Positions 24,947 to 63,053 of a DNA stretch of 64,000 nucleotides are shown here, one piece after another (positions within the stretch are counted from its first letter, which is position 1; the number at the start of each line of letters is the position of its first letter). A program made the translations under genes and the position numbers. The stretch is from contig NZ_CP038231.1 in assembly GCF_006542395.2 (NCBI RefSeq), forward strand, positions 1,488,001-1,552,000, written 5' to 3'. The notes beneath the pieces were generated by a model. That model was given only the letters and a program-made list of their open reading frames with translations. It had not been told where the DNA came from and searched no databases. This DNA is from Formicincola oecophyllae (GTDB lineage: Bacteria > Pseudomonadota > Alphaproteobacteria > Acetobacterales > Acetobacteraceae).

Positions 24947-26368
24947 TCAGCTATCACGCCTGCTGAAGGTGGCCACAGCCTGCTTCACCTTTGCCAGGTC
25001 GGCTGGCAAGGTCAGGCAGCGCTCTGGCCGCTGCCACAGCCCTTCCAGCTGCGCTGGCTGGGCTGGGCGCTGGCCGGTGGCTTTGTGGACGGCGTCAGGG
25101 AATTTGGCAGGGTGGGCGGTGGCCGCCACGATCATGGGCACGCCAGGCTCCAGCCCCCCTTCCCCAGCCACCAGACCAATAGCTGTGTGGGGGTCGGCGA
25201 CATAGCCCCCATCCGCAAAGCGCTTCATGGCGTTCAGTGTTGCGCCATCATCAAGGGAGCGGCCCATGAAATGCGCCGTGATGCGTTGCCACGCCTGCTC
25301 AGGCACAGCCATGGCGCCTGTCTGGGCGAAGCTTTCCATGGTGGCTTTGCAGGCTTCCCCATCACGCCCCAGGCTTTCATGAAGGAGGCGCTCGAAATTG
25401 GAGGAAACCTGAATGTCCATGGAGGGGGAGAGACTGGGCGCCACAGGGCTGCGGCTCATGTCATTGTTGTGGAGGAACCGCGTAAGGATGTCATTCTGGT
25501 TAGACCCAACGCAGAGCCTGCTGACAGGCACCCCCATTTGCTTGGCCCCCCAGGCCGCCAGGACGTTGCCGAAATTGCCTGTGGGTACAGCGAATGAAAC
25601 AGGCCTGTCAGGCGCACCGAGCTTCAAGGCGGCGTGGATGAAATAGGCCACTTGGGCTGCGATGCGCGCCCAGTTGATAGAATTGACGGCTGAAAGGTGC
25701 ACCTCCTCCCTGAAGGCGCTGTCAGCGAACATGGCTTTGACCATAGCCTGGCAGTCGTCAAAGTCCCCTTCAATAGCGATGTTGAGGACATTGGGCGCTT
25801 GAACGCTCGTCATCTGCCGGCGCTGCACTTCAGAGGTGCGGCCCAACGGGTGCAGAATAACGATATTGACGTTTTCCTTGCCTTTGAAGGCCTCCAGCGC
25901 AGCGGAGCCTGTATCGCCGGAGGTGGCGCCAACAATGGTGACATGGGCGTTGCGGCGCTTCAGGGCTTCCTCAAACAGCTCCCCCAGCATCTGCATGGCC
26001 ATGTCTTTGAAGGCCAAGGTGGGGCCGTGGAAAAGTTCCAGGGCGTAAAGCCCTGGGCTGACTTCCACTAGGGGGACGATGGCGCTGTGGCCAAAGCGGC
26101 TGTAGGCGCGCTTTGTCATGGCCTCCAAAGTGGGCAAGGGGATGTCCTCGCCTGCGAACAGGCTGATGGTGCGTGCTGCCAGGGCTGGGTAGTCCAGCTT
26201 GCGCCAGGCGCGCAGCGTTTCCTTGTCCAGCTTGGGCCATTGGCTGGGCACGTAAAGGCCGCCATCGGGTGCCAGCCCGCCAAGGAGGACATCTGTAAAG
26301 GTGGCTGGGGCGCCTTGGCTGGCAGCAAATTGGCTGGATGGCGCAGAACGGGTGGAATGGTAATGCAT
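24947..26368 (-). CDS. thrC: Threonine synthase
   Basis: PLP enzyme converting O-phosphohomoserine to threonine. The 473-aa protein has the family N-terminal layout (MHYHSTRS, GLAPDGGLYVP), the PLP-binding lysine K121 in FHGPTLAFKDMAMQ, the cofactor phosphate loop VGATSGDTGSAALEAF and VPTGNFGNVLAAWGA. Length fits the enteric/alphaproteobacterial type that lacks an N-terminal SAM-binding domain. It is followed on the same strand by the M16 peptidase. No attenuator or strong ribosome site was seen upstream. Confidence 0.96.
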   Translation of the reverse strand: MHYHSTRSAPSSQFAASQGAPATFTDVLLGGLAPDGGLYVPSQWPKLDKETLRAWRKLDYPALAARTISLFAGEDIPLPTLEAMTKRAYSRFGHSAIVPLVEVSPGLYALELFHGPTLAFKDMAMQMLGELFEEALKRRNAHVTIVGATSGDTGSAALEAFKGKENVNIVILHPLGRTSEVQRRQMTSVQAPNVLNIAIEGDFDDCQAMVKAMFADSAFREEVHLSAVNSINWARIAAQVAYFIHAALKLGAPDRPVSFAVPTGNFGNVLAAWGAKQMGVPVSRLCVGSNQNDILTRFLHNNDMSRSPVAPSLSPSMDIQVSSNFERLLHESLGRDGEACKATMESFAQTGAMAVPEQAWQRITAHFMGRSLDDGATLNAMKRFADGGYVADPHTAIGLVAGEGGLEPGVPMIVAATAHPAKFPDAVHKATGQRPAQPAQLEGLWQRPERCLTLPADLAKVKQAVATFSRRDS

Positions 26369-26509
26369 GGGACGTGGTGCCTGGACTGGTGGAGGGGACG
26401 TTCGCGCGGGGCACGTGGTGGCATAGCGGGGCCGGGCATGGATGGGGCAGCATCACCCTTGGCTGGTGGCTTGACAACCCTTCAGCCTAGCCGCGCTTTA
26501 GTGTCGTGG

Positions 26510-29500
26510 TTAAGCCGTGATGCGTTCCTGGGTAGGGGTGGTTGATGTGTGACCCTGCTGGTTGAAGCGCGCCACTGTTTTCAGCAACGCCATGCGCAGG
26601 CGCTCAATGGCGATAATGTCCGTCAAGGGGGCGCCTTCGCTTGTCACGTGGAAAACATCCACCACTTGCTGGCCGTAAGTGGTGATGAAGGCGGCCTCCA
26701 CGTAAAGCCCGGCTTGGTGGAGGTCGCGTGCCACGCAGTTCAGGAAGCCTGGTCCATCGGGGGCGTCCACCTCTATTACGGTGTGGCGGCTTGAGAGGCG
26801 GTTGTCGATGGCCACCCGCCTGAACAGCGCTTCTCCGCATAGCCCAGGCCCTGACGCATGGTGGGTTGGGGCGGTATCGCAGGCACAGCCAGGGGCCAGG
26901 ACGCCATCAGGTTGGGCTAAGGCCGTGCGCAGACCACGCGCCACCCTCTCCAGCGTGGCGGGGTTGGGGCGCTGGCCCTGGCCATCCTCCAGCCAGAAGG
27001 TAGCCAGCACTTTGGAGAGCTTGCGTCCAGGCGCCAGGAAGTGATCCGTGAGTTGGAAACCGTGCAAGCGCGCATCCACCACATGAAGGCCATTTTGGGC
27101 GATCAGCCCACTGACCAGAACCAGGAAGCCGTCACGGTCGGGGCACATGATGGTCAGCTCCGCCAAGTCGGAGGAAGGGTCAGACTGGATCTCCACCAAA
27201 GCTGGCCTGGGTAGTTTCTGGGCTGCGCCTTTTCCCCCGTCATGGCCGTTGCTTTCCTCGCCAGGAGGGTGGGCAAGTGCCTGGTAGCGCCTATAGACCA
27301 GGCCATGGCGCACATGGGTGTTTGTGTCCATGGAAAGCCAGTAAGCATCGCTGCCCATGGCCAGGAAATTGGTCAGCGTGGCTGACGGCAGGTGCCCTTG
27401 CAGCGCCTGGCGCACATCCAAGCCGGTTTGGGCTACGTCCTGGCGGGCGGCGCGGGCGCTTTTGTGGTGGATGAGGTTCAGCCCCCCTTCCAAAAGGGTG
27501 GCCAGGCGCCCGTAAAGCCTGTCCAGGGCGATGGTCTCAAAGATGTTCCAGTCATCAGGGCTGATGGCCATCAGGTCCGCCATGGTGAGGATGGTCAGGT
27601 GGCGCAACCTTTCTGGCGATTGGATGGTATCAGCCAGGGCCAGGATGGTGGCGTTGTCACCGTCCAGGCCCTGCAGGGCAGCGTTGGCCAGCAAACCGTG
27701 ATGTTGGATCAGCCAGCAGATTTCCTCCACCACATTCTGCTCCATGTCCAGCCTGGCGCACAGCGTGCGGGCCGTGCGGGCGCTGCGGTTGGCGTGGCGG
27801 GCAATGCCGCGCGTTTTTCCCATGTCGTGGAACAGGGCTGCCATGGCTAGGAGGGTGGCTGTGCCGCCTACCTCCAGGCAATCATGGCCAGCACCATTGC
27901 CCCCAGAGGGCCTTGCGGGGGAGAGAAGGCGGCACAGCGCCACCAGTCCTGGGGGAAGGTGTGTGGTTTTGGCTTGCTCCCCATCCCTGTGCTGCTGCCC
28001 AGCATGAAGGGTGCTATCCACATCCACAGGTTGGACATGCAGCAGCTGGTGGACAAGGCGCGCTGTGACCAAGCCGTGGTGGTCCACCGTGCGCCGCAAC
28101 CCTGGCCCTGGGTAAGGCAGCGCTGTGACGGGGCGCCATTCAGGCAGCAAGGCTGCTAGAAGGCCCGATAGTTCCAGCTTTTGCAGGGCGTGGGGGCAAA
28201 GCGTGACCAGTTCCTGCAGGATCATGCCGCCATGGCAGCGCAGGTGGCGCGCTGTTGGGCTGTCCTGGATGGCGGCGCGCGCTAGTGCCCTGGCGCTGCG
28301 CGTCATACGGGTGAACAGGCCTGCTGGCAGCGCTGGCACGCTGAGCGTTGCCCCAGGGTGCGGCGGCATGGTGGGGTCTTTTTTGGGGCCAGCGGCAGAA
28401 GTGCCCATGATGGCGTTGCGGTAGTCCATCAAAGGCTGGAGAAGCCAACTGCCGGCGCCAGGTACTTTAGGCATGCCTTGGGGCGGGAGGGTGAATGGCC
28501 TTTCAGCTGCGCCGTCATGCACAAGCATGGCAAGTTGGCGCCCGCCACGCAGCATGAGGTGCACTTGCCGCATGAAGTGAAGCGCCTTGGCGTCCGCCGT
28601 GCTGCCGCCATAGCGCAGGAACGTGGCCAATACGGGTTGGCTTTCAAGCGTCAGCCTGTCCCCTGGGCGGCCAGCAACGTAGTGGAGGTGGAACCGCACC
28701 TGCCACAGGAAGCGCAGAATCTTGCGCCCGCGCTTCATCAAGGGCGCACCTGGCCAGGCTTGCCTTGGATGGGTGGCCAGCCAACGCTGGCGGGAGGCGC
28801 CCAACTGCGCCGTTAAAGCTGATAGCGCCAAAATGCCGCCAGGGTGGTGCAGCAGGTCTGGTTCGGCCATAGTATCTGGGTTGAAAGGGTCAGCCCCCCT
28901 GCCCGGAACGCCCGTTGCCCCAGCTACCTCGTGCTGGGGGGGGTGGCGTGATGGCGTGCCGTAAATCAGCTGCGCCCCTTTGAGGGGGCTTGCCATGATA
29001 GCGCTGACCTGAATGCCCGCTTCGCGCAAGGTGCGCGTGATGAAGCGCATAGCGCGCTTGGTGGCAGCTACGGCGTTGGCCTTCCAGTTTGCCGCTGGCC
29101 CTTCCCATCGTTCATCCAGGACAGGGCTGAACAACAATTGCACCGTGCTGAACGGGGCCAGCCTGTCATGGGCCAGTTCACCGCTAGCATGGATGCGGAA
29201 CCAGGGCTGGGGGGGGAGGGTGGCGCCATCCGCGCTGGCTGGGCTTGCCCCCCATGGGGTGCGGTGCTCGGTCAAGGCTGCCAACATGCTGATGGTCGCG
29301 TTGATGAGCCGCCCATAGGAACGCGCTGCCTTAAAGCCGCTGATCTGCCCTTCCTTGAAGGCTTGGCGCAAAGCGGCGCGCTCGCTTGAAAAGCGTTGCC
29401 GCAAACCATTGAGGGCCTCATTCACGCTAGCTTGGCCTGGCCATGCTGGCGGGTTGGGGGAAAAGGCGGGTGTGAATGACAAAGGTTCAGTGCCTGCCAT
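26510..29500 (-). CDS. glnD: GlnD-like PII uridylyltransferase with eroded transferase site
   Basis: By overall layout this is the bifunctional PII uridylyltransferase/uridylyl-removing enzyme of nitrogen control: N-terminal nucleotidyltransferase region, central HD domain (FHDMGKTRG, H558-D559) and two C-terminal ACT domains (CPDRDGFLVLVSGLIAQNGL and DAPDGPGFLNCVARDLHQAG). The transferase signature, normally GGYGRGxLxPxSDxDLL, here reads ASGELAHDRLAPFSTVQLLF at about residues 105-124: the glycine loop is altered and both catalytic Asp are Thr119 and Gln121. The first HD-domain His (family VDEH-T) also seems replaced (VDVDST). No frameshift; 996 aa. The ATG at 29500 has AAGGA 4-5 nt upstream; the frame is open to 29632. 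Confidence 0.85.
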   Translation of the reverse strand: MAGTEPLSFTPAFSPNPPAWPGQASVNEALNGLRQRFSSERAALRQAFKEGQISGFKAARSYGRLINATISMLAALTEHRTPWGASPASADGATLPPQPWFRIHASGELAHDRLAPFSTVQLLFSPVLDERWEGPAANWKANAVAATKRAMRFITRTLREAGIQVSAIMASPLKGAQLIYGTPSRHPPQHEVAGATGVPGRGADPFNPDTMAEPDLLHHPGGILALSALTAQLGASRQRWLATHPRQAWPGAPLMKRGRKILRFLWQVRFHLHYVAGRPGDRLTLESQPVLATFLRYGGSTADAKALHFMRQVHLMLRGGRQLAMLVHDGAAERPFTLPPQGMPKVPGAGSWLLQPLMDYRNAIMGTSAAGPKKDPTMPPHPGATLSVPALPAGLFTRMTRSARALARAAIQDSPTARHLRCHGGMILQELVTLCPHALQKLELSGLLAALLPEWRPVTALPYPGPGLRRTVDHHGLVTARLVHQLLHVQPVDVDSTLHAGQQHRDGEQAKTTHLPPGLVALCRLLSPARPSGGNGAGHDCLEVGGTATLLAMAALFHDMGKTRGIARHANRSARTARTLCARLDMEQNVVEEICWLIQHHGLLANAALQGLDGDNATILALADTIQSPERLRHLTILTMADLMAISPDDWNIFETIALDRLYGRLATLLEGGLNLIHHKSARAARQDVAQTGLDVRQALQGHLPSATLTNFLAMGSDAYWLSMDTNTHVRHGLVYRRYQALAHPPGEESNGHDGGKGAAQKLPRPALVEIQSDPSSDLAELTIMCPDRDGFLVLVSGLIAQNGLHVVDARLHGFQLTDHFLAPGRKLSKVLATFWLEDGQGQRPNPATLERVARGLRTALAQPDGVLAPGCACDTAPTHHASGPGLCGEALFRRVAIDNRLSSRHTVIEVDAPDGPGFLNCVARDLHQAGLYVEAAFITTYGQQVVDVFHVTSEGAPLTDIIAIERLRMALLKTVARFNQQGHTSTTPTQERITA

Positions 29501-29926
29501 GCTGTCCTTGGACGTGACGAACTGCCGGGTGGTTCCAATAGGGGGCAGGGGCAGGCAAGCTTTGTAGAAAGCTTTGCCGCTGGGCGCGCCCCCAGCCTTG
29601 GCACGCTTGATTAAAGGCGCCCCTAAGGCCACAGCTTTACGAACTGGTAAGAATCACAGTGCCCCATCCATAATGAAAATCAACCGATAACAGGTCGATT
29701 AAAGGACACTTTAAAGTGTCCTTTGGCTGCAACCCTGCCCCAGTCCCAGTTTTGCCGTTTCAGGTAGAGTGGAAATATTTTTCAAAAACCAAGTGAACGG
29801 CCGCGCTTATCAGGCGTGCTTTTGTCGGCGGGGGCGCCCGGTTAGGTAGGGTGCCAGGGGGCGTCCCTTAAAGAGGTAAAGGTTTTGGGGCTGTTTGGCG
29901 CTATTCTCTCTTGTTTACTGCAGTGT
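29501..29926. other. Intergenic region between mutS and glnD with palindromes
   Basis: A 426-bp stretch of lower GC than its surroundings. It holds an imperfect inverted repeat at 29678-29700 (AATCAACC and GGTCGATT), directly abutted by the 24-bp perfect palindrome listed separately, and an A/T-rich patch at 29769-29792. CAGTAAACA is repeated in tandem across the mutS stop on the minus strand. The glnD promoter should lie here, but no convincing -35/-10 pair could be picked. No small ORF with a ribosome site was found. Confidence 0.5.
29701..29724. promoter_or_regulatory. Perfect 24-bp palindrome upstream of glnD
   Basis: The arm AAAGGACACTTT is followed immediately by its exact reverse complement AAAGTGTCCTTT. 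It lies about 200 bp upstream of the glnD start and about 200 bp beyond the mutS stop, both on the minus strand. In RNA it would give a 9-bp stem with a UUUAAA loop. It could be a dimeric-regulator operator for glnD or a terminator of mutS; the short T tail makes the operator slightly more attractive. Confidence 0.55.
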
Positions 29927-32887
29927 TTACTGCGGTTTTTTCAAAAGGTCGCCTAACTCGTAAAGCAGCGCGTGGGCTTGGCGCGGTGAAAGGCTGTCGG
30001 GGTCGGGGTTTTTCAAGAAAGCGCGCAAGGCTGGCGCCGTGTCAGCGCTGGCGTTTTCAGTGGGTAGCGTCAGGGTGAAGGTGGGTTTGGCAAGGGGGTT
30101 TAGGCTGCCGCCTTCGGCAACGCTTGAGGCTTGGGGTGGCATTTCAGATGCTTCTTTAACGCCGCTTGCAGTACGGCCAGTCCGGGAGCTTTCCGCTGTT
30201 GGGCTGAGCGTGGCCTGATTGGTGAACAGGTCTGAAGCGCCCACCCCCTGCGCCTGCCAGGTGGCTGGTGGGTGTTCAGGCTGGTGGGGCGTGCGCGCTG
30301 GTTTCCGGCGTGCCTGCATTTGGTTGAGCAAAGCCTGGGCGCGTTCCAGGATCGGGGCAGGCACCCCAGCCAGGCGCGCCACGTGAATGCCCCAGCTGCG
30401 CCCAGCCACGCCAGGCGCCACTTCATGCTGGAACACCAGCTGGCCCTCCCATTCGCGCACTTTCATGGCCCAGGGGCGCATGGCGGGCAGTTCAGCGGTC
30501 AAATTGGCCAAAGCGTGGAAATGGGTGGCGAAGATCGTCCGCGCCCTGATGCTGTCATGAAGGGCCTCCAGGGAAGCGCGCGCCAGCGCCAGACCATCCA
30601 GTGGGGCGGTGCCACGGCCTAGCTCGTCAACGATGACGAAGGAACGCGGCCCAGCCTGGTTGAGGAGGGCTGCAGTCTCCGTCATTTCCACCATGAAGGT
30701 GGATTGGCCGCGCGCCAGGTCGTCTGCGCTGCCCACGCGTGAAAACAGCCTGTCTACCAAGCCGATGCGCGCGCTCAAGGCTGGCACGGGCAAGCCGGCC
30801 TGCGCCATGATGATGGCCAGCGCGTTCTGCCGCAGGAAAGTGGACTTGCCAGCCATGTTGGGGCCGGTCAGCAGCATGACACGCTCTGTGGGGGGTAGGG
30901 CGCATGAATTGGGGGTGAAGGGCGCGCCACCGCCGCCTTTGGCGCGTTGGCCCTCCATAGCGCGCTCCACAACGGGGTGGCGGCACTGACGCAGGTCAAA
31001 GCTCGCGTCCTCAGTCAGTTCAGGGATGCACCAGCGCCCTGTGCGCGCCAAGGCCGCGCAGCTTTGGGCCACGTCAAGGGCTGCCATGTTCTGGATGAGG
31101 GCGGGCAGCGCCTCCAAAGCCATGATGGCCTCAACCAGTTTCTGGACCAGGCCCTGCTCGCGCTCAGTGCTGAGCTCAGCAGCTTCAGCCAAGGTGCTGT
31201 TAAGCTCGTCAAGAGCTTGGTTGCTGAAGCGGGCCAGGTTGGCAGTACCTTGCCTGATGTGCAGTTCAGGGTGGGCGCGCAGGCGTTCGCCCTCGCGCGC
31301 GGGCACCTCAATGACATGGCCCAGTTGGCTGTGGTGGCGCACGCGCAGTCTTGGCGCACCGTAACGTTCCGCCAAGCCGGCCTGCATGGTCATGATGGCT
31401 TGCTGGCTGTCATCACGTAGGGTGCGCAGGCGGTCCAGCTCAACATCGAAACCGCTGGCGATGACGCCGTCCTCCGTGGCGCGGGCGGGCAGTTCCTCAG
31501 CCAAGGCTTGGGCCAGCATGGCGTGAAGGCTGGCCAGCCTGGCTGCCAGGGCGGGTTCAGGCGCAGCCCAAGGGGTTTGGGGGGCACGCCCCAGGAGGAC
31601 ATGGAGCGCCATCAGGGCGGCCAGCGTGTCCCTGATGGCAGCCAGGTCGCGCGGTAGGGCGCGGTTGCTGGCAATGCGCCCCAAGGCCCGGCTTGCGTCT
31701 GGCAGCCCTTTGAGGTGCGCGCGCACCTGTTCAGCCAGGTTGTCGTTCTCAGCAAGCCATGCCCAATCGCGCTGGCGCTGCTGAATGGTAGCCAGATAGG
31801 TGAGGGGGTTGGCGATGCGCTCAGCAAGGAGGCGCCCGCCCCCTGCCGTCAAAGTGTTGTCGAGGGCTTCGAACAAGGTGTTGGCCGTGCTGCCGTCACG
31901 CCCTTCCAGCAGGTCCAGGCTGGCCCTGGTGGCACTGTCGAGGCCCATGGCGTGCCCTTCCCGGTGCACGACAGGCGGCGCCAGGCGCGGCAGGGTGCCA
32001 GCCTGGCTCATGCGGGCGTAGTCCAGCATCATGGCGCAGGCGATGGCTTGGTTGTCCGTCACCGCCCCTAGGGAGGCTGCGTCATGGACATGCCATGCCT
32101 GGGCCATGGTGGTACGCGCGCGCGCCGCGTTCAGGGCGCTGCGCCGCCCACGCGCGCCGCCGTCAGGTGCCTGGGCATAAGGACGCCACGCCGCAGGCAG
32201 CGCTTCACGGTCGTGGATGATGATCTCAGCTGGTTTGAGGCGCCCCAAGAGCTCATCAAGGCCAAGGGCTGTGGTGCTCTGCACATCCACTGTGCCTGTG
32301 GAGAAATCCATCCACGCCACGCCCCATTCACCCCCCTGTCCCTGGACGTGGGCTGGCGGGGGGGCCAGGGCCATCAAAAGGTTGGGGCGTGCACTTTCAA
32401 GCAGTTCATCCTCCGTCAAGGTGCCAGGGGTGAGGATGCGCACAATGCTGCGCGGCAAGGGCCCTTTACGGCCTTTGCTGGGCTTTTCCGTCTGCTCTGC
32501 CAAAGCAACGCGGAAACCGCGCTGGATAAGCCTGCGCAGGTAAGCGTCCACGGAATGAAAAGGAACGCCACACATGGGGATGGGTGAATCACTGTGCTTG
32601 CCGCGCGCCGTTAAGGCGATGTCAAGCGCTGTGGCCGCTGTGTGGGCGTCCTCATAGAACAGTTCATAGAAATCCCCCATGCGGAACAGCAGGAGCGTGT
32701 CGGGCACTTGCTCCTTGAGGGTAAACCACTGTGCCATGGCAGGGGAGGCCTGTGCGGCCCTTTCAGCCCAGCTGGACTGTGTGGGCCCCTCAGTACCAGC
32801 GCCTTGGTTGGCCTTGCCTGCGTCAGCCTGCCCTGGCCCAGGGGCACTGGTTGGTGTCTTGACGAAGGGGGCTTGGTGGTCAGTCAT
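29927..32887 (-). CDS. mutS: DNA mismatch repair protein MutS
   Basis: Recognises mismatches and recruits MutL. The 986-aa product has the mismatch-contacting FRMGDFYELFYEDA near residues 68-81 (Phe-x-Glu included), connector and clamp domains, Walker A GPNMAGKSTFLRQ at about residue 670, Walker B FVIVDELGRGTAPLDG and the ATHFHAL switch. It is longer than the usual 850-900 aa, with an N-terminal Ala/Pro/Gln-rich tail of about 50 residues and a low-complexity stretch of some 90 residues near the end before the C-terminal dimerisation helix. MAQWFTLKEQ at residue 51 is an alternative start. murJ lies upstream... that is, murJ follows 69 bp to the right and is transcribed first. Confidence 0.96.
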   Translation of the reverse strand: MTDHQAPFVKTPTSAPGPGQADAGKANQGAGTEGPTQSSWAERAAQASPAMAQWFTLKEQVPDTLLLFRMGDFYELFYEDAHTAATALDIALTARGKHSDSPIPMCGVPFHSVDAYLRRLIQRGFRVALAEQTEKPSKGRKGPLPRSIVRILTPGTLTEDELLESARPNLLMALAPPPAHVQGQGGEWGVAWMDFSTGTVDVQSTTALGLDELLGRLKPAEIIIHDREALPAAWRPYAQAPDGGARGRRSALNAARARTTMAQAWHVHDAASLGAVTDNQAIACAMMLDYARMSQAGTLPRLAPPVVHREGHAMGLDSATRASLDLLEGRDGSTANTLFEALDNTLTAGGGRLLAERIANPLTYLATIQQRQRDWAWLAENDNLAEQVRAHLKGLPDASRALGRIASNRALPRDLAAIRDTLAALMALHVLLGRAPQTPWAAPEPALAARLASLHAMLAQALAEELPARATEDGVIASGFDVELDRLRTLRDDSQQAIMTMQAGLAERYGAPRLRVRHHSQLGHVIEVPAREGERLRAHPELHIRQGTANLARFSNQALDELNSTLAEAAELSTEREQGLVQKLVEAIMALEALPALIQNMAALDVAQSCAALARTGRWCIPELTEDASFDLRQCRHPVVERAMEGQRAKGGGGAPFTPNSCALPPTERVMLLTGPNMAGKSTFLRQNALAIIMAQAGLPVPALSARIGLVDRLFSRVGSADDLARGQSTFMVEMTETAALLNQAGPRSFVIVDELGRGTAPLDGLALARASLEALHDSIRARTIFATHFHALANLTAELPAMRPWAMKVREWEGQLVFQHEVAPGVAGRSWGIHVARLAGVPAPILERAQALLNQMQARRKPARTPHQPEHPPATWQAQGVGASDLFTNQATLSPTAESSRTGRTASGVKEASEMPPQASSVAEGGSLNPLAKPTFTLTLPTENASADTAPALRAFLKNPDPDSLSPRQAHALLYELGDLLKKPQ

Positions 32888-59646: not shown

Positions 59647-60033
59647 TCAGCTTGGGTTTGGGGGCAGCGCAGCATAAAGGCGCTGGGCTAACTTGGCTGG
59701 GCCGCGCCGTTCCACGCAAGCGCGCACACGCCACACCAGAACCTTCGCTTCCCGCGAGTTGCCTGGGGCGGGGAAAGTCAGCACGTCCCCAGGGCGCACT
59801 TTGGCGTGGGCCTTGGTCAGCCTGCGCCCGTTGAGGCGCACTTTGCCGCTGCCTGCCAGTTTGGCCGTCAAGGCGCGCGTCTTAGCTAGGCGCGCATTGT
59901 AGAACCAAACGTCAAGGCGCTGTTCAGGCAGCTGGTCGGGCAGTTGGTCAAGCTGGGCTTCATCAGGCCCCTCCTGCTGGGAGGTGGGCTTGTTCATGGC
60001 TTGATCTGCGTTGGGGCTGGGGGCATCAGGCAT
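59647..60033 (-). CDS. S4-domain RNA-binding protein (Hsp15-like)
   Basis: A 128-aa protein with a polar Gln/Asp-rich N-terminus of about 40 residues and an S4 RNA-binding domain: [40 protein letters not shown] and [20 protein letters not shown], resembling Hsp15 and the RluD-family S4 fold. Start choice is uncertain: ATG at 60033 (used), 60048 or 59997 are all in frame and none has a clear ribosome site. The first two overlap the end of the helicase gene, suggesting coupled translation. It probably binds rRNA or stalled 50S subunits, by family inference. Confidence 0.82.
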
Positions 60034-62869
60034 GGCGTTTGGAGTCATGGCGTTTGGCGTGGCTTGCTGAAGGAGCCTGGGCAGGCTTGCGCTTGCTGGC
60101 TGGGCGGTTTTGAAGATTGGATGGCTTGCGCGCCCCCTTTCCAGGGGCAGTTTTGAGGGTAAGCCCAGCCAAGGCCGCAAAAGGGCTGGCAGGATCATGA
60201 CCTTCAAGGCGCCCCTGGCTTCCACGGCGCTTGGCGGGGGGGTGTGCGTTGCTATGCCGCGCCCTGCCCTCAGCTTGGCCTGGGTGGCTGGAACCTGGCC
60301 TTGAGGGCTTGATGCGGATGAGGGGCGGCGCTGGCGCGCCAAGCGCGCCAACTGGCAGATCACCAAGCAGGCGCAACGGCACGCCAAGCCCTGCCAGGAC
60401 ATCTGGCGCCATGGTGGCTTTGAGCGCCAGGCGCCTGGTGATGTCAGCAGGCAAGGGCACATGGCGCTGCCCAGGCTGGGGCCGCAACTTGGCAACGGCT
60501 TGCAGGACCCTCTCCGCCTGGTCAAGGCGCAGGGCGACAGGGCCAGCCTTAACCCACCCAGGCCAAGGTGGCCTTTGGGCTTCCTCCACCCAAAAGCGCC
60601 CAGGCGCCATGGGCTGGGGCGCTGTGCCTGCCCCTTCCCACACGCAGCCCAAAAGGGACATCAGCCCAGCTACCGCTGGCTTGAGCAAGCTTTCATGCCA
60701 CACAAGCCCCTGCCCCTCCACGCCAAGAGCTGTTGAAAAAGCAAAGCCATGGCTTTTCAAAGCACGCGCCTGGGTGCGCAGGTTGGTACCCTCCCCCCCA
60801 AGCAACACGGTGACGCCGCCATCCTCAGCCAGCCTGTGGGCCAGGCCACGGGTCATGCTTTGCTGGCGCAGTTGCTCTAACCCCTGCCAGAAAAGGCGCA
60901 GGCGCTGGCGCACATAGTCAGCCAGCCAGCCCTGAAGGCGCTCGCGCACGGGCACCTCCTGCTGGGGATCGCTGAAATCCCCCCGCAGCAGCTTGATGGT
61001 GGGGGCAAAGAAACCCTCCCCCTTGACTAGGCGCGCCACAGGGGCGCCGCGCCATGTCAGCGTGCCAGGGGGGATGGGTTGTTCCTGCAAGGCGCTTGCG
61101 CCATTTTCTGGCCCCGCGCCAGGCACCCTGTCTGCGCCGCTTTCAACAAGGGCGATCGTTTCTCCCCCATCCTCCAGGAAGCGCTTGATGATGCCTCCCA
61201 TGGCCTCACGTGCGGCCCTGTGGCCAGCTTTGGCGATGGCGTCATGCTCTGAGCGGCTTTGGGCGTTGGCCGCATTGAAGGCGAACCCCTCCAACTGGCC
61301 AATCTCGTGTCCTTCCACCACCACAGCGCCTGTGGCGGTGACAGCATGAAGCATGGCCGCATCATCATGGCCTTCACGGCGCATCAGCACAGCGGCGCGG
61401 CGGTTGACGAAGCGCGCTGTTAACCTTTCATGCAAAGCGTCTGAAAGGCGCTCCTCCACAGCTTGGCTTTGCGCGCCTAAGGCGCTGCCTGGAGCGGTCC
61501 AGCCAGCGCGCGCTGTGACATAGGCCCACACACGCACCCCTGAAAGACGGTTCATCAACATGTCGATGTCGCCTTCCGTTTGGTCAAGGGCCTTCAAGTG
61601 GCCCTGGATCCAAGCTGTTGGCAGGCGCCCCTTCTCCAGCAGTTCCTTGAAAATGCGCCCGCAAAGCTGCGCGTGGCTTTGGTCGCCCATTTTCCTGAAA
61701 TCAGGTATTTGGCATGCCTCCCACAGCAAGGCCGTTTCGCGCCTGCCACGCGCGCGCTCCATGATGGCCTGCTCACGGGCCAGGGTTTGCAGCACCTCCA
61801 AGTCAGAGCCAGGGCGCCCTGGTTTCAGCTCTGGCCTGGGTGGCTTGGCGCGCAGGCTGCGCAGAAGGGCTTGGGGGTTGGCGAACTCAAGCGCGCTTTG
61901 GCGCCAATGGAGCTTCTCCACCGCTTCAAAGCGGTGCTCCTCAATGGTATCAGCCAAGCTGGGGGCCATGGGGGGGCATGTGTGGGTGGTGCCGAAGGTG
62001 CCATCCTTCATGCCACGCCCAGCGCGCCCGGCAATCTGGGCGATCTCCTGCGCGCTCAAATGGCGGGGGAACTGGCCGTCAAATTTGCGCATGGAAGCCA
62101 GGGCCACATGGTCCACATCCATGTTGAGACCCATGCCGATGGCGTCTGTCGCCACCAGGTAGTCAACGTCACGGTTCTGGTAGAGCTCTATCTGGGCGTT
62201 GCGCGTGCGCGGGCTCAACCGTCCCATGATGACGGCACAACCGCCGCGCCTCTGCCTGATGGCCTCAGCCAGGCTGTAGACCTCATGGGCGGAGAACGCG
62301 ACAATGGCCGAACGCGCAGGTAGCCGCCCCAAATTGCTGTGGCCAGCATGGACAAGCTGCGACAGGCGCGGCCTGGTCTCAACCGTGATGCCTGGTATGA
62401 GCTTCTGCAGCATGGGGCGCATAGTCTCAGCGCCAAGGAACAACGTTTCGCTGCGCCCGCGCGCATGGAGGAGGCGGTCAGTGAAAACATGGCCGCGCTC
62501 TGGGTCGGCAGCTAGCTGGATCTCGTCAATGCCGATGAAATCCACCGCGCGCTCCAGGGGCATGGCCTCCACCGTGCAAGCGAACCACTGCGCGCCTGGG
62601 GGGACGATCTTCTCCTCCCCCGTCAGCAGCGCCACCTTGCCAGCGCCTTTGACCGCTTTGAGGCGCTCGTAATTTTCTCGTGCTAGAAGGCGCAGGGGAA
62701 AACCCATGATGCCGCTTTTGTGCGCCATCATGCGGCTGAGCGCATGATGGGTCTTGCCTGTGTTAGTGGGGCCCAGAATGGCGGTGACAGCGCTGTTGCG
62801 GCGCTGGGCCAGCTCCTCAAGGGCGCTGCCCGCCAGGGCGCGGAACTGATGTGCGTTGCGTTGTGCCAT
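60026..62869 (-). CDS. Suv3-type DExH RNA helicase
   Basis: Homologue of the mitochondrial RNA helicase SUPV3L1, widespread in alphaproteobacteria as a large helicase next to S4 and FdxA genes. Walker A is LGPTNTGKTHHAL at about residues 32-44; the DExH box is IGIDEIQLAADP; motif III LGAETMRPML; motif VI QIAGRAGRGMKDG. After the helicase core come C-terminal domains and a long basic, low-complexity tail (KPSNLQNRPASKRKPAQAPS) likely to bind RNA. The ATG at 62869 has GGGAGAGCC directly upstream, giving 947 aa; the frame is open to 62947. RNA turnover partner is unknown here. Confidence 0.9.
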   Translation of the reverse strand: MAQRNAHQFRALAGSALEELAQRRNSAVTAILGPTNTGKTHHALSRMMAHKSGIMGFPLRLLARENYERLKAVKGAGKVALLTGEEKIVPPGAQWFACTVEAMPLERAVDFIGIDEIQLAADPERGHVFTDRLLHARGRSETLFLGAETMRPMLQKLIPGITVETRPRLSQLVHAGHSNLGRLPARSAIVAFSAHEVYSLAEAIRQRRGGCAVIMGRLSPRTRNAQIELYQNRDVDYLVATDAIGMGLNMDVDHVALASMRKFDGQFPRHLSAQEIAQIAGRAGRGMKDGTFGTTHTCPPMAPSLADTIEEHRFEAVEKLHWRQSALEFANPQALLRSLRAKPPRPELKPGRPGSDLEVLQTLAREQAIMERARGRRETALLWEACQIPDFRKMGDQSHAQLCGRIFKELLEKGRLPTAWIQGHLKALDQTEGDIDMLMNRLSGVRVWAYVTARAGWTAPGSALGAQSQAVEERLSDALHERLTARFVNRRAAVLMRREGHDDAAMLHAVTATGAVVVEGHEIGQLEGFAFNAANAQSRSEHDAIAKAGHRAAREAMGGIIKRFLEDGGETIALVESGADRVPGAGPENGASALQEQPIPPGTLTWRGAPVARLVKGEGFFAPTIKLLRGDFSDPQQEVPVRERLQGWLADYVRQRLRLFWQGLEQLRQQSMTRGLAHRLAEDGGVTVLLGGEGTNLRTQARALKSHGFAFSTALGVEGQGLVWHESLLKPAVAGLMSLLGCVWEGAGTAPQPMAPGRFWVEEAQRPPWPGWVKAGPVALRLDQAERVLQAVAKLRPQPGQRHVPLPADITRRLALKATMAPDVLAGLGVPLRLLGDLPVGALGAPAPPLIRIKPSRPGSSHPGQAEGRARHSNAHPPAKRRGSQGRLEGHDPASPFAALAGLTLKTAPGKGARKPSNLQNRPASKRKPAQAPSASHAKRHDSKRHA

Positions 62870-63053
62870 GGCTCTCCCTGCTTGGGTCCTAAATCGGTGC
62901 GGCGGGCCTGGAAAGCAAGGGGTGGGGTGGCAATGGGGGATTGGCACACCATCTTTGGAGCATCAGTGCCTGGCACGTGCCAGCAGCCAAGCCGTGCCAC
63001 CAACGCCCCAGCAACCCACACCTAGTACTCCACACAAGAGCGGAAGATCGTCT

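Follow-up and report, generated by a model that had tools for sequence, protein, structure and literature searches.

A full-length GlnD with a destroyed main active site in Formicincola oecophyllae, a genome in which PII was not detected, may have a PII-independent role

GlnD is treated as both the sensor and the writer for PII. What, then, might a GlnD do when it remains full length in a genome where its uridylyltransferase (UTase) site is destroyed and PII goes undetected? The question is raised by a gene of Formicincola oecophyllae that lies in the window, the 64,000-nucleotide stretch of contig NZ_CP038231.1 analyzed here (positions 1,488,001 to 1,552,000, forward strand). The genome (1.96 Mb, 3 contigs, rated 100% complete) is the sole representative of its genus in our comparison.

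The gene is an unbroken open reading frame of 1,040 codons (26510-29632, reverse strand, as are all features within it) with a GTG start; an alternative ATG start at 29500 gives a protein of 996 aa. Residues are numbered here from the 1,040-codon frame, and subtracting 44 yields the number used in a first-pass annotation, which counted from the ATG at 29500 and had described the gene as full length and unbroken, as it proved to be over all 1,040 codons. The conserved upstream neighbor, mutS (29927..32887, reverse strand), was used for orthology and for rate comparison; among 103 loci examined in relatives, 99 have it beside glnD, 97 of them with both genes on one strand, and the relatives with names that bear these loci are Acetobacteraceae. 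Because mutS adjoins the window gene as it does in those loci, and the protein has the full-length GlnD domain order, the frame is a glnD ortholog. The downstream neighbor is thrC (24947..26368, reverse strand), which nearly abuts glnD in the window (26368-26510) and is about 3 kb away in, for example, Gluconobacter albidus (locus L097). Elsewhere in the window, a frame of 973 codons (60026-62947, reverse strand) gave helicase matches that were weak and partial only.

The encoded protein is 29 to 31% identical to seven intact relatives and 21% identical to both GlnDs of another genus, g30, and its matches to NF003467 (266.6 bits; curated cut-off, 959) and TIGR01693 (239.8 bits; curated cut-off, 519.4) fall far below the curated scores. 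No close named relative was found by the GlnD protein alone. A second, intact glnD, which the first-pass annotation had named as a finding that would count against its reading, was sought in the genome, and the gene proved to be single copy.

For the active sites, we aligned 104 rows, comprising the window GlnD, 23 GlnDs from a family sample, and another 80 from named genome loci, kept as the best of 415 in an alignment-based scan; removal of the window row and the two rows of g30 left 101 rows (95 different sequences). A simple motif pattern missed the UTase site in 9 of the 80 named loci and the HD site in 6; by alignment columns, SDxD and the HD site were intact in 80/80. Both catalytic Asp columns held D in 101/101 rows (95 distinct), and the window GlnD has Thr and Gln there, so that SDxD reads STVQ (29138..29149; residues 118-121 in the earlier count). 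The (T)GGYGx loop is replaced by SGELAH (29168..29185), with GELA where relatives have GGYG, and two further stretches, WDLG..GHATRS and VEPNIKEGRGGLRDLQ, have been lost as well. The loss of the transferase signature that the first-pass annotation had read from these two motifs is thus borne out. A catalytic Asp elsewhere in the N-terminal domain, which would have spoken against that reading, was also sought, and residues 45-372 contained no other DxD.

The surroundings of the site have changed too. The former nucleotidyltransferase core (residues 140-216; 28985..29215) retains 10 of 26 near-invariant columns. Pfam NTP_transf_2 had no match in the window GlnD or in the two g30 GlnDs and was present in both intact relatives scanned (Bombella intestini and genome G069); a GlnD_UR_UTase region was still matched further along (residues 303-362; 28547..28726; PF08335, 37.1 bits; cut-off, 21). 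AlphaFold2 models of the window and B. intestini GlnDs shared one input set of 33 sequences. In the window model (996-aa form), block means for residues 131-210 were 29 to 53 pLDDT, and the B. intestini region reached 92 to 95 over most of its length, with four strands; overall model confidence was 70.8 versus 84.3, and the pLDDT comparison is therefore a relative one. By structure comparison of the model, the N-terminal region still aligned with the GlnE N-domain 1v4a (Z, 16.4; rmsd, 4.4; 284 aligned), and the gross fold is therefore not erased. Judged from its residues, the UTase active site of the window GlnD is destroyed, and the changes there exceed chance, as the columns are invariant across the family, yet the frame is open. 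Such a protein cannot be expected to uridylylate PII.

The HD (phosphohydrolase/uridylyl-removing) region fared differently at its metal site. It spans residues 510-720 (27473..28105; Pfam HD, 26.2 bits; cut-off, 22), and alignment showed all six metal-site residues, each invariant in 101/101 rows, to be retained: H519 (28076..28078), the doublet H602-D603 (27824..27829), H613 (27794..27796), H645 (27698..27700), and the distal D686 (27575..27577), which were H475, H558-D559, H569, H601, and D642 in the earlier numbering. The HD pair reported previously is thus confirmed, and the accompanying statement that the first HD histidine appeared replaced does not hold, since H475 aligns with the invariant His. 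Across the region, 31 of 55 near-invariant columns were kept, which gives P = 0.025 (hypergeometric) for keeping six of six site residues, these having been chosen after the alignment was seen. Non-catalytic invariant columns of the HD and ACT regions were also changed (e.g., G607, P660, D665, and N956-G957-R958), and the HD region carries two insertions found in the window GlnD only, 21 and 19 residues long; block means were 73 to 92 pLDDT in the modeled HD core and below 50 in the inserted stretches. The modeled region aligned with the HD part of the CCA-adding enzyme 3wfr_E (VIA-align Z, 17.2; rmsd, 3.2; 245 aligned), followed by other HD phosphohydrolases at Z values of 8 to 12 (PPX/GppA 6pc0_B, 11.7; SAMHD1 4bzc_A, 9.2), values that the tool describes as common among helical folds. 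When solved structures were searched by profile, the matches were the HD part of the CCA enzyme (poly A polymerase), a GTP pyrophosphokinase ACT domain, and GlnE, and no GlnD was among them. The window GlnD thus has both the H...HD...H...H...D residues and the HD fold by which HD-superfamily phosphohydrolases are recognized.

Two C-terminal ACT-like regions were distinguished by alignment and model. ACT-like domain 1 (26828..27187) has 2- and 9-residue insertions seen only in the window GlnD, and its modeled strands and helices were mostly at 83 to 91 pLDDT, with lower loops; ACT-like domain 2 (26558..26827) was seen in the model and had a weak Pfam ACT match (15.7 bits; cut-off, 27). What the earlier claim called two ACT domains are here two ACT-like regions, with Pfam ACT under its cut-off.

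The partner protein of GlnD was not found by our searches. The first-pass annotation had proposed looking for glnB/glnK and glnE, and neither PII (PF00543) nor GlnE was detected in the window genome. No PII was found at an E value of ≤0.001, and at a limit of 10 the best match (E, 0.154) lay inside an 830-codon frame; the same search detected the divergent PIIs of g30 at about 8e-15. The ammonium transporter gene amtB is present, and the C-terminal tail of its product still resembles the tails of relatives, but no PII lies at the amtB locus, where the neighbor, by sequence, is a divergently placed permease; of the 11 genomes with PII that were compared, 9 have it no more than 1.6 kb from amtB. 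A divergent PII of the window genome was accordingly rejected as a candidate, as neither the search with a limit of 10 nor the amtB locus provided one. Downstream of amtB are two adjoining, similar lipoprotein-like genes (L092, 5989-6906 and 6818-7927), of MetQ/NlpA type by eye.

In the family sample, PII was detected in 196 of 200 genomes; the other four were the window genome and three drafts (95, 73, and 77% completeness). GlnE was found in only 162 of the 200, so its absence is not rare; among the 20 listed of the 38 genomes in which it was not detected, 19 have PII and 19 have a GlnD match. A class-wide alphaproteobacterial draw (241 genomes; completeness floor, 95%; GlnD scored by NF003467 at an E value of ≤1e-15) gave PII in 182 genomes and GlnD in 173, and 3 of these 173 lacked a detected PII: the window genome, G276 (2.0 Mb, rated 95% complete), and G369 (460 contigs). 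In G276 and G369, the missing PII may reflect assembly gaps. Four further genomes (G298, G301, G307, and G432) had PII matches far below the usual strength (E, 5e-12 to 1e-19), and these may be further degenerate PIIs.

A comparable GlnD occurs in g30 (Acetobacteraceae), represented by genomes G115 and G029, whose GlnD frames encode 890 and 897 residues (L071, 1475-4144, and L072, 1457-4147, respectively, both reverse strand). Like the window GlnD, these have a destroyed UTase site, in which the loop is gone and the two Asp columns hold P (first) and D or N (second), and a long open frame, in a small genome of the same family; unlike it, they have also lost the HD site (5 of 6 residues gone), and their genomes keep a degenerate PII near amtB (L085 and L086), which retains the Tyr51 equivalent and has lost both its TGxIGDGKI loop and the RTGE tail at the C terminus. 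Between the two species, GlnD is 63% identical, with a dN of 0.289, a saturated dS of 2.8, and a resulting ratio of about 0.10, which indicates purifying selection. Intact GlnDs of two Bombella pairs, used as controls, gave 0.088 and 0.093 (dS could not be computed for a third pair), and the g30 MutS pair was more constrained (79% identical; ratio, 0.043). By part, the HD-like region was the most conserved (72%) and the nucleotidyltransferase-like region the least (46%). The g30 GlnD, with neither active site, is thus maintained by selection, an argument for a conserved role there of some part of the protein, at least a non-catalytic one. Whether the UTase site was lost once or twice reads differently by gene: the GlnD tree joins the window and g30 (support, 97; flagged as long branches meeting), and the MutS tree does not; a single window plus g30 clade was not rejected by the AU test (p, 0.41).

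Three other accounts have to be weighed against a retained, PII-independent function in the window lineage. The serious rival is that glnD is a late-stage relic which, after loss of PII and GlnE, is unconstrained and drifting, its frame open by chance and its HD residues mere leftovers. The missing partner genes fit this, as does the acceleration of the window branch, at 3.26 changes per column for GlnD versus 0.94 for MutS (about 3.5 times; 4.38 with g30 left out), and many invariant columns have changed, including the non-catalytic ones of the HD and ACT regions named above, alongside 15 window-only insertions. The state of the frame speaks against it, though. We made a minimal count, restricted to columns in which the window departs from a residue shared by eight near relatives, and obtained 148 changes on the branch; at 0.035 nonsense per missense change about 5.2 stops would be expected under neutrality; none was seen (P, 0.006). 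Over the 1,040 codons there were no stops, frameshifts, or loss of coding composition, and GC at the three codon positions (0.673/0.510/0.727) fell inside or close to the values spanned by nine other window genes. The open frame and codon-position GC favor a translated protein under changed constraint; the complete HD site and the purifying selection on the g30 GlnD also speak against a relic, which we regard as doubtful, while part of the branch may be neutral change.

If the protein is kept, it could be a non-catalytic scaffold or an ACT sensor only, in which neither UTase nor HD chemistry matters and which binds an amino acid and another regulator. The constraint on the doubly dead GlnD of g30 would suit such a role, and passages of a study of Sinorhizobium meliloti (PMC3596328) provide evidence that GlnD has effects for which neither GlnB nor GlnK is required, describing an N-terminally truncated GlnD-sm2 without UTase activity whose influence on genes persists and is independent of PII. 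The six HD-site residues that the window GlnD keeps, while neighboring invariant ones are lost, would be superfluous in a pure scaffold, and we consider this account unlikely. More improbable still, to the point of being hard to entertain, is an enzyme that removes uridylyl groups from a PII so divergent that it escaped detection. It would draw on the intact HD-site residues and on the great divergence that PII can reach, as in g30, but the best PF00543 match is the one within the 830-codon frame, the amtB locus is without PII, the search was sensitive enough for the g30 proteins, and without UTase there would be nothing to remove. As no PII substrate was detected, a PII-uridylyl-removing role is unlikely. 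The options raised in the first-pass annotation (glutamine sensor, uridylyl-removing enzyme only, or nothing) were reasonable ones, but its suggestion that PII/GlnE nitrogen control was left rewired does not suit a genome in which neither partner was found.

Since the UTase site reads as dead and no PII was detected for deuridylylation, the role of the window GlnD is best read as PII-independent. Our main reading, to which we give a probability of about one-half, is that this ortholog has turned into a UTase-dead protein working without PII, most likely as an ACT-responsive HD phosphohydrolase or a regulatory scaffold. After the loss of the UTase site, the protein would still be translated and useful; it would respond through its ACT regions to glutamine or another amino acid, and as a hydrolase or scaffold it would have a target other than PII. 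Because the HD-site residues are kept, an ACT-regulated HD hydrolase is our first choice over a scaffold or sensor; that g30 keeps a GlnD without an HD site weakens the hydrolase part. A broader version, which we offer tentatively, is that GlnD has an old PII-independent job to which the protein was stripped down in small-genome relatives of Bombella and Saccharibacter, leaving an ACT-controlled HD hydrolase without PII in the window genome and a doubly dead signaling pseudoenzyme in g30.

The window GlnD shares with the bifunctional GlnD of Acetobacteraceae (NF003467, TIGR01693) the mutS neighborhood, the domain order, the HD-site residues, and a whole-length alignment; it differs in its lost UTase residues, its scores below the curated cut-offs, and the lack of a detected PII or GlnE in the genome. 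Plant ACR proteins, to our knowledge, are without the HD and N-terminal GlnD regions. They are plant, not bacterial, proteins, and their ACT repeats are described in passages such as those of PMC12702975 as structurally similar to GlnD. Another parallel is GlnD-sm2 of S. meliloti, a GlnD without UTase activity as predicted for the window from the lost residues, but there, in the passages cited, both PII proteins are present and the truncation is a constructed mutation. Among the titles and abstracts listed by searches of the open-licence GlnD literature, none dealt with a GlnD that in nature lacks PII or has a dead UTase site, which is weak evidence of absence.

The PII-independent function reported for S. 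meliloti GlnD would, on our main reading, be the sole function left in the window GlnD. The retained function could then not be the known one in the window lineage, nor could it be catalysis in g30. If this is true, nature would offer examples of the unexplained PII-independent action of GlnD on its own, and a GlnD kept after the loss of PII, GlnE, and the UTase site, together with the doubly dead yet conserved GlnD of g30, would make a PII-independent role testable.
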